Assembly (NCBI GenBank): GCA_031274595.1
Contig: JAISPX010000018.1
Span: 1-34,229, forward strand
Source of the DNA: Prevotellaceae bacterium
GTDB lineage: Bacteria; Bacteroidota; Bacteroidia; Bacteroidales; UBA932
Direction of reading: 5' to 3'
Length of the DNA stretch: 34,229 nucleotides
Below the pieces are notes generated by a model. That model ran no database searches. It had not been told where the DNA came from and saw nothing but the letters and a program-made list of their open reading frames with translations. Shown here piece by piece: positions 31,510-33,218 of this stretch. The translations under genes and the position numbers were made by a program. Positions within the stretch are counted from its first letter, which is position 1; each line of letters begins with the position of its first letter.

Positions 31510-31761
31510 CATCTTTTTCCTACCTCCGAGCTACCTTTTCCTATCTTTGATCTACCTTTTCCTACCTCCGAGCTACCTTTTTGTACCTCCGAGCTACCTT
31601 TTCCTACCTCTGAGCTACCTTTTCCTACCTCTGAGCTACCTTTTCCTACCTCTGAGCTACCTTTTCCTATCTTTGAGGTACCTTTTCCTACCTCCGAGCT
31701 ACCTTTTCCTATCTTTGAGCTACCTTTTCCTACCTCAGAGCTACCTTTTTCAATGTTTGAG
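31510..31761. repeat. 21-bp tandem array no. 2 (12 units)
   Basis: There are twelve contiguous 21-base units. The plus strand of a typical unit begins CTACCTTTTC and ends CTCCGAG. Units vary mainly at one position (CCGAG, CTGAG, CAGAG) or as a block (TATCTTTGAG). On the minus strand a unit is seven codons, G-S-S-E-V-G-K, and the single-base variants fall on the third base of a Ser codon (TCG/TCA/TCT), so they are silent. That frame is open from about 31775 past the array but has no ATG. The plus-strand frame (YLFLPPS heptads) has an ATG at 31547 but its variants change residues. The array lies between the ribF stop and the terminator of the next minus-strand gene. Confidence 0.93.
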
Positions 31762-31846: not shown

Positions 31847-32314
31847 TCACTGTTCGTCCGTTTTGCGTTTCTTGCATGAAAAACGGGCTTTCAAGTCGTT
31901 GTACACTTCTTTGGCGCCGGGGATGTCCTGTGCGGAAGCGGCTTTCACGGCGTTGTAGAATACGAGCGAGGCTTGATAGGCTTCGCTTCCGGCTACCATT
32001 GCGGTGTCGTCGATATTGTCGGCGAGCTGGCGTGCGGAAATGTGCAGCACGCGCAATCCTGTGGCGTCAGCAATGTCGGTGTCAAACTCCGCGGTGTTGA
32101 GGTACGAAGGCACGAAAGCGGGATACTGACTCACATAATCGTGCGCTTTTTCTACAAAACTCAGGGTTTTGTCGCCCATTTTCGGCAGTTCCATCCGTTC
32201 CTGCGGCGTGAGCGGCAGTAGATAGGGGGCAAGCAGTGCGTTTGCCTCATCGATTTTTTTCTGTGCCTGCGCCAGAATCTCCGGCGGTATAGGCAGTACA
32301 TGTTTATTTTCCAT
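31847..32314 (-). CDS. orphan cytoplasmic protein of unknown function
   Basis: This 155-residue soluble, mostly helical protein starts MENKHVLPIPPEIL and contains LLPLTPQERMELPKMGDKTLSFVEKA, then HISARQLADNID, GSEAYQASLVFYNAVK and a basic end (CKKRKTDEQ). No signal peptide, membrane segment or catalytic motif is visible. I recall similar proteins scattered in gut Bacteroidetes, without known function. It is clearly less AT-rich than the core genes here, as is the orphan at 19076. Its promoter region is one copy of a duplicated ~93-bp header, and it ends at a strong terminator, so it is a compact single-gene transcription unit. Confidence 0.75.
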   Translation of the reverse strand: MENKHVLPIPPEILAQAQKKIDEANALLAPYLLPLTPQERMELPKMGDKTLSFVEKAHDYVSQYPAFVPSYLNTAEFDTDIADATGLRVLHISARQLADNIDDTAMVAGSEAYQASLVFYNAVKAASAQDIPGAKEVYNDLKARFSCKKRKTDEQ

Positions 32315-32340
32315 TCTTTTTACAGTTTTTTATATTATTT

Positions 32341-32435
32341 TTACTTATTCAGGCACAAAGATAAAATATTTTTTTGATACGAAAGCATATTAAATTAAAT
32401 TCGAACTCGTGAATCGAGTTGTTTTCGTTGTCCAT
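32341..32435 (-). repeat. header copy 1: methyltransferase-like N-terminal fragment plus promoter box
   Basis: This aligns along its whole length with 33126-33218. On the minus strand it begins with ATG (32435) and encodes MDNENNSIHEFEFNLICFRI and eight more residues to a TGA at 32349. The first 17 codons resemble the start of a Bacteroidetes SAM-dependent methyltransferase family (IHEFDF...LICEYF, from memory). The rest of that gene is missing. TATCTTTG (32363-32356) is a good -7 box placed to drive the orphan gene at 31847-32314. AACTCG/CGAGTT (32404-32420) is an inverted repeat with a 5-base loop. Confidence 0.8.
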
Positions 32436-32483
32436 GTTTTTATGATAATTTTTCAGTTGTAACCGTAAAATCAGAATATGTTT

Positions 32484-32978
32484 TCAATGTCGCAGTGAAA
32501 AAGCGTCCGACTTGTATATGTTTGGTTCCTCATAGGAATTCCATATTTTCAATGTCGCAGGCACAAATCGCAAAAGCGTATAATCGCTGTCGCCTTTCGG
32601 ATAATACAACTCTCCCCAATCTTTCTGCCACGCCCGTTGCCGCAATTCGTTGTCGGTAATGATTTCCACCGTACCCTGAAGCAATACGGCATAAAATTTT
32701 TGCGGATCGCAATAATACAGGTTCGCTTTACCGTTTTGCTCGATTTCGGCAAATTTTTGCGAACTTGTATTGGTGGACATAAAAACCGTAAGCGGGTTTT
32801 CTTCCGCCTCGTGTACCGCCACTAATCCGGGGTACTCGTTCGGATTTTTCAGGTTGAGCATGGCACGGGTAGAGGGAAAACCGTCTTTGTCGATATTCGT
32901 TAAATAAACTACCGACGCGGCTTCCATCATTTTCAGGCATTCTGCCTGCTTCGCTGATAAATTCATTTTTGATTCCAT
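32484..32978 (-). CDS. pyridoxamine-5'-phosphate-oxidase-like flavin protein (general stress protein 26 type)
   Basis: This 164-residue split-barrel protein of the PNPOx-like superfamily would bind FMN or another flavin or heme cofactor. It shows VVYLTNIDKDGFPSTRAMLN near the N-terminus, FMSTNTSSQKFAEIEQNGKANLYY in the middle, and VLLQGTVEIITDNELRQRAWQKDWGELY, the usual pattern of COG3871 stress proteins. The true substrate is unknown, and these are not the PdxH enzyme. The start may be the second Met at 32966. A 15-base word, TTTTCAATGTCGCAG, occurs near the 3' end (32481-32495 and 32546-32560), which could mark a small duplication. The gene is preceded by header copy 2. Confidence 0.85.
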   Translation of the reverse strand: MESKMNLSAKQAECLKMMEAASVVYLTNIDKDGFPSTRAMLNLKNPNEYPGLVAVHEAEENPLTVFMSTNTSSQKFAEIEQNGKANLYYCDPQKFYAVLLQGTVEIITDNELRQRAWQKDWGELYYPKGDSDYTLLRFVPATLKIWNSYEEPNIYKSDAFSLRH

Positions 32979-33125
32979 TTTTAATTTATATTTATTGTGT
33001 TATAAAATTCTGATTTTATGTACAAATTTGTCTATATTGACTGAAAGCCCTCCAATCAATTAATAGTATTTTTCAATTCCCCCAAATCCTGTTATCTTTT
33101 TATTTTCTTCATTGTTCCTTATTTT
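32979..33125. other. gap between the PNPOx-like gene and header copy 2
   Basis: If the -7 box in header copy 2 drives the PNPOx-like gene, this stretch is its ~155-base leader. It holds a palindrome, ACAAATTTGT, near 33021-33030, and no recognisable gene. Confidence 0.4.
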
Positions 33126-33218
33126 TTACTTATTCAGGTACAAAGATAAAATATTTTCGATACGCAGGAAGATTAAATTGAATTCGAACTCGTGAATGGA
33201 GTTGGTTTCGTTGTCCAT
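33126..33218 (-). repeat. header copy 2: methyltransferase-like N-terminal fragment plus promoter box
   Basis: This is the second copy of the header. The minus-strand ATG at 33218 opens a 30-codon frame beginning MDNETNSIHEFEFNLI and ending at TAA 33126. Against copy 1, the differences within the first 16 codons are one amino-acid change (N to T) and three silent changes (TCG/TCC, TTT/TTC, ATA/ATC), a pattern that suggests past selection on the protein. TATCTTTG (33148-33141) is conserved. The AACTC/GAGTT inverted repeat (33187-33203) is kept with a slightly longer loop. Confidence 0.8.

Follow-up and report, generated by a model that had tools for sequence, protein, structure and literature searches.

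A probable duplicated deletion scar, joining a methyltransferase start to a promoter, precedes two unrelated genes in a Prevotellaceae bacterium

Results

The window, that is, the whole stretch of 34,229 nucleotides that was analysed, carries on its minus strand, in this order, a RAYT-type transposase gene, a short header (copy U), a PNPOx-like gene, a second header (copy D) and an orphan gene. The first-pass annotation had described two tandem units of header plus gene here, and both were recovered. The features are as follows.

33861-33406, minus strand: RAYT-type transposase gene, upstream of header copy U
33281-33274, minus strand: TATATTTG, possible original methyltransferase promoter, its function predicted from a motif scan; present only before copy U
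33218-33123, minus strand: header copy U, a 17-codon methyltransferase start fused to a promoter; 89% identity to copy D over 98 nt
33218-33168, minus strand: methyltransferase 5' remnant in copy U (MDNETNSIHEFEFNLIF), in register with the ATG of intact methyltransferases, for example G005:C65 (~80% DNA identity over 59 nt)
33180-33092, minus strand: promoter, 5' UTR and first codons (MKKIKR, then a stop) resembling the 5' region of gene X in G168:C275 (79% over 84 nt)
33148-33141, minus strand: TATCTTTG, predicted -7 promoter element of copy U, from the sequence and the TAnnTTTG consensus (PMC7366714)
32978-32484, minus strand: PNPOx-like gene (flavin-binding split-barrel family), 164 aa; Pfam PNPOx_N at 1.4e-12
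32435-32335, minus strand: header copy D, from the repeat alignment with copy U
32435-32385, minus strand: methyltransferase 5' remnant in copy D (MDNENNSIHEFEFNLIC), 84% DNA identity over 55 nt to the methyltransferase start of G111:C15 (L074)
32363-32356, minus strand: TATCTTTG, predicted -7 promoter element of copy D, from a motif scan
32314-31847, minus strand: orphan gene, 155 aa, all-helical, probably driven by the copy D promoter (14 homologues aligned; AlphaFold2)

The two headers are direct repeats with the 98-nt stretch as their core, and a gapped alignment extends them to 33232-33099 (U) and 32451-32303 (D). Their local alignment scores 148, against a maximum of 32 among 500 shuffles, so that the likeness of the copies is not due to chance. 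Exactly two copies, separated by 783 bp, occur in the source genome. In copy U an ORF opens with the ATG at 33218 and reads MDNETNSIHEFEFNLIFLRIENILSLYLNK up to a stop codon, and in copy D the ORF opens with the ATG at 32435 and reads MDNENNSIHEFEFNLICFRIKKIFYLCA, again up to a stop; these ORFs comprise 28 or 30 codons, and their ends differ in both frame and sequence. Three silent differences and one replacement separate codons 1-16 of the copies, exactly as first counted, and codon 17 contributes a second replacement (TTC/TGC). With ~15% of random changes computed to be silent, three silent changes out of four have a probability of ~0.01, and three out of five (codon 17 included) of ~0.03, in a comparison picked post hoc. 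The first-pass annotation had taken these differences as a sign that the fragment once evolved as protein. They fit a protein ancestry that is shown independently below; they number four and do not demonstrate selection after the duplication.

The stretch between copy U and the PNPOx-like gene shows no significant trace of the orphan gene, and the sequence upstream of copy U none of the PNPOx-like gene. The PNPOx-like gene is also framed by an inverted repeat (ATAAAATCAGAAT with its reverse complement), which was considered as a pair of transposon ends and rejected as weak (P ~0.01 before choice of region).

By homology, the header opens with the first 17 codons of a class I SAM methyltransferase gene of the Bacteroidales, which bears out the earlier description of a methyltransferase-like N-terminal fragment: 16-17 codons match the starts of intact methyltransferases in register, and DNA matches to the header start at or beside the methyltransferase ATG with the reading frame preserved. 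Intact methyltransferases with matching protein starts occur, for example, in G049 and G005, the latter from the same genus and carrying a methyltransferase of the header's family whose protein matches Pfam Methyltransf_11 at 1.6e-15. The remainder of the gene is absent at the locus, and whole-protein and C-terminal-half searches found no methyltransferase of this family in the source genome, an 87% complete draft in which a gap is possible. No 3' methyltransferase fragments were found in a search most sensitive for 5' fragments. As the possible methyltransferase promoter TATATTTG precedes copy U alone, copy U may be nearer the original methyltransferase site.

A search of 399 family genomes for the motif HEFDFNLIC, allowing two mismatches, returned 13 sites. 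Two are the headers themselves and one, in G406, lies in an unrelated frame; of the others, nine start intact methyltransferases and the last, in G154:C2, is a truncated gene. Outside the source genome, nine of the ten methyltransferase starts found in this way thus begin intact genes, and full-length methyltransferases sharing the header's first residues, which the first-pass annotation had suggested looking for, do exist. The fused header itself was absent from the 149 relatives and 399 family genomes searched, from viral contigs (exact 23-base pattern) and from plasmids, where a single 31-nt match fell outside the methyltransferase part; many promoter-only matches were rejected as header copies, being ordinary promoters. 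We found no intermediate genome with a single header or with a methyltransferase directly upstream of X or of the orphan gene, and no two of orphan, PNPOx, methyltransferase, RAYT and ribF stood together at any of the loci fetched from outside this locus.

Truncated methyltransferase starts were seen in two other genomes. In G154:C2 (L160, ~1484-1650) a methyltransferase is cut after ~36 codons and runs into a promoter and the start of a TonB-like gene, and G154 also has an intact copy; in G168:C462, found by DNA search, a frameshifted methyltransferase start of ~33 nt is fused to unrelated sequence and followed by a RAYT element. These fusions have different neighbours and lack the header promoter, and from their sequences both truncations look as scars would.

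The promoter half of the header is of a common type. Promoters of the Bacteroidetes primary sigma factor (sigma-ABfr) have TAnnTTTG at -7 (PMC7366714), and TATCTTTG fits this element, in agreement with the promoter first proposed within the header. Its distance to the start codon is suitable, at ~41 nt from motif to orphan ATG in copy D, where the 25 nt of 5' UTR beside that ATG are 96% identical to the homologue in G002. Near-identical promoter cores precede many unrelated genes in relatives, and other genes of the orphan family in Bacteroidales mostly have their own promoter of the same type at a similar distance. The predicted promoter of copy D, its 5' UTR and the orphan gene would make an ordinary transcription unit, and the predicted promoter of copy U lies ~160 nt from the PNPOx-like gene.

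Past the point where U and D diverge, copy U goes on to match the beginning of a third, unrelated gene, X, found in one relative, where (G168:C275) it begins MKKLKNVLVIVGG; the match covers 33180-33099, and the stop codon of the stub falls just past its end. The comparison of U with the gene X 5' region scored 72 in the aligner, and the next best of the unrelated promoters (~1029 compared) scored 48, so that copy U very probably carries the gene X promoter together with a six-codon stub of X. No gene X homologue was found in the 61 relatives searched; X is therefore sporadic and its history not traceable.

The genes behind the headers are unrelated to each other. The best match to the PNPOx-like protein within the genus is 31% identical, so there is no close homologue there, and the nearest found (64% identical) comes from another family of the same order; the gene was therefore probably acquired. 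The AlphaFold2 model of the orphan protein consists entirely of helices (mean pLDDT 91); no Pfam family scored above the cut-off, and a fold search with the model gave nothing significant (best E 2.1). Its all-helical family (L050-L068), which has no named counterpart, is common to Bacteroidales and Treponema, being spread across their metagenome-assembled genomes; some members have several paralogues in one genome. Judging from the isolate series, these metagenome-assembled genomes look to be from termite gut.

Two further features lie on either side of the two units. The RAYT/IS200-like element spans 34019-33314 (minus strand), with inverted, palindromic REP-like copies of ~85 nt (33951-33864 and 33408-33324) on either side of its gene, and 30 of 250 family genomes contain matches to the element, mostly to the palindromes. 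Its identity is 92% to the element of G168:C462, from another genus, against 79% to that of G005, a member of the same genus, which suggests horizontal movement. A 21-bp tandem repeat in ~11 copies (TTTTCCTACCTCTGAGCTACC) lies at 31515-31749, a short way downstream of the orphan gene.

Discussion

Taken together, the homology, the copy number, the failure to find a methyltransferase in the genome, the promoter motif and the match to X make it probable that the header is a deletion or rearrangement scar which was then duplicated locally. The order of events that we infer is that a class I SAM methyltransferase gene was cut after about codon 17 and joined to the promoter and 5' UTR of gene X, and that a block of ~100-130 bp, comprising the methyltransferase start and the promoter, was then duplicated locally. 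The PNPOx-like gene would thereby have gained one copy upstream, still carrying a remnant of the first codons of X, and the second copy would have come to sit immediately in front of the orphan gene. At present the orphan gene would most likely be transcribed from copy D as an ordinary housekeeping promoter, the PNPOx-like gene may receive some additional transcription from copy U, and the methyltransferase codons of the header would be non-functional debris. The silent excess, three of the first four differences, counts against debris and is slightly odd. Also against the scar reading, the truncated genes seen in other genomes are all 5' fragments, although these were the fragments to which the search was most sensitive.

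That excess would be accounted for if each of the two genes had once been preceded by an intact methyltransferase, and these copies had diverged under selection and been truncated later, with gene conversion evening the junctions, and some relatives (G049, G013) do have two methyltransferase genes. This history is nonetheless improbable; it requires two truncations and a conversion across the same junction, and one truncation followed by duplication is simpler.

The window, G154:C2 and G168:C462 might together suggest that methyltransferase starts are a recurrent recombination point in the Bacteroidales of this family, their 5' fragments being repeatedly joined to new promoters or genes and thereby providing or capturing promoters for genes that arrive, the PNPOx-like gene among them; we consider such a general role very unlikely.

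We also think it very unlikely that the header is a mobile or capturable 5' module that moves or recombines as a unit, with unrelated genes placed behind it. Part of the cassette idea put forward by the first-pass annotation stands, in that the same 5' block precedes two unrelated genes, and the ~100-bp direct repeats flanking the PNPOx-like gene would allow it to loop out by homologous recombination; methyltransferase starts fused to other sequence also occur in G154 and G168. A capture system is not supported, however: the only copies are the two adjacent ones, at a single locus of a single genome, with none among the relatives, family genomes, viral contigs and plasmids searched, and the G154 and G168 fusions are without the header promoter. 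Moreover, the methyltransferase start in relatives almost always begins an intact methyltransferase, largely the outcome that the annotation had itself set against cassettes.

A translated leader peptide, by which the 28- or 30-codon ORF would regulate the gene behind it, is just as doubtful: the retention of the ATG and open frame by both headers, the silent differences and the possible promoter TATATTTG upstream of copy U would suit it, but methyltransferase homology accounts for ATG and frame, the ORF ends are unlike, no Rfam element was found, and the header promoter lies 3' of the ATG, overlapping the ORF tail, so that its transcript lacks the ATG and a leader peptide on it is excluded. 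A peptide from transcripts starting further upstream is possible but unsupported.

The best reading of the whole feature is a duplicated scar, the product of ordinary genome decay with promoter reuse. The case illustrates how minor rearrangements at one place, in a genome region that is decaying and changing fast, can put a promoter to new use in front of unrelated genes; it also disposes of the cassette system as a false lead, and its effect is otherwise local.

Among known systems, the class I SAM-dependent methyltransferases (Methyltransf_11/Methyltransf_25) are matched by the 17 header codons at their start and in register (G005:C65, G049:C13, G111:C15), whereas the remnant, with ~7% of the gene left, lacks the SAM-binding domain. 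As in local tandem or segmental duplication with promoter reuse, the header copies lie on the same strand, a few hundred bp apart and ~11% diverged, although the genes flanking them are not themselves duplicated. Compared with the sigma-ABfr promoter (PMC7366714), both copies have TATCTTTG, with a short A/T-rich 5' UTR before the orphan gene; a clear TTTG at -33 is absent from both, and otherwise the header promoter has nothing unusual.
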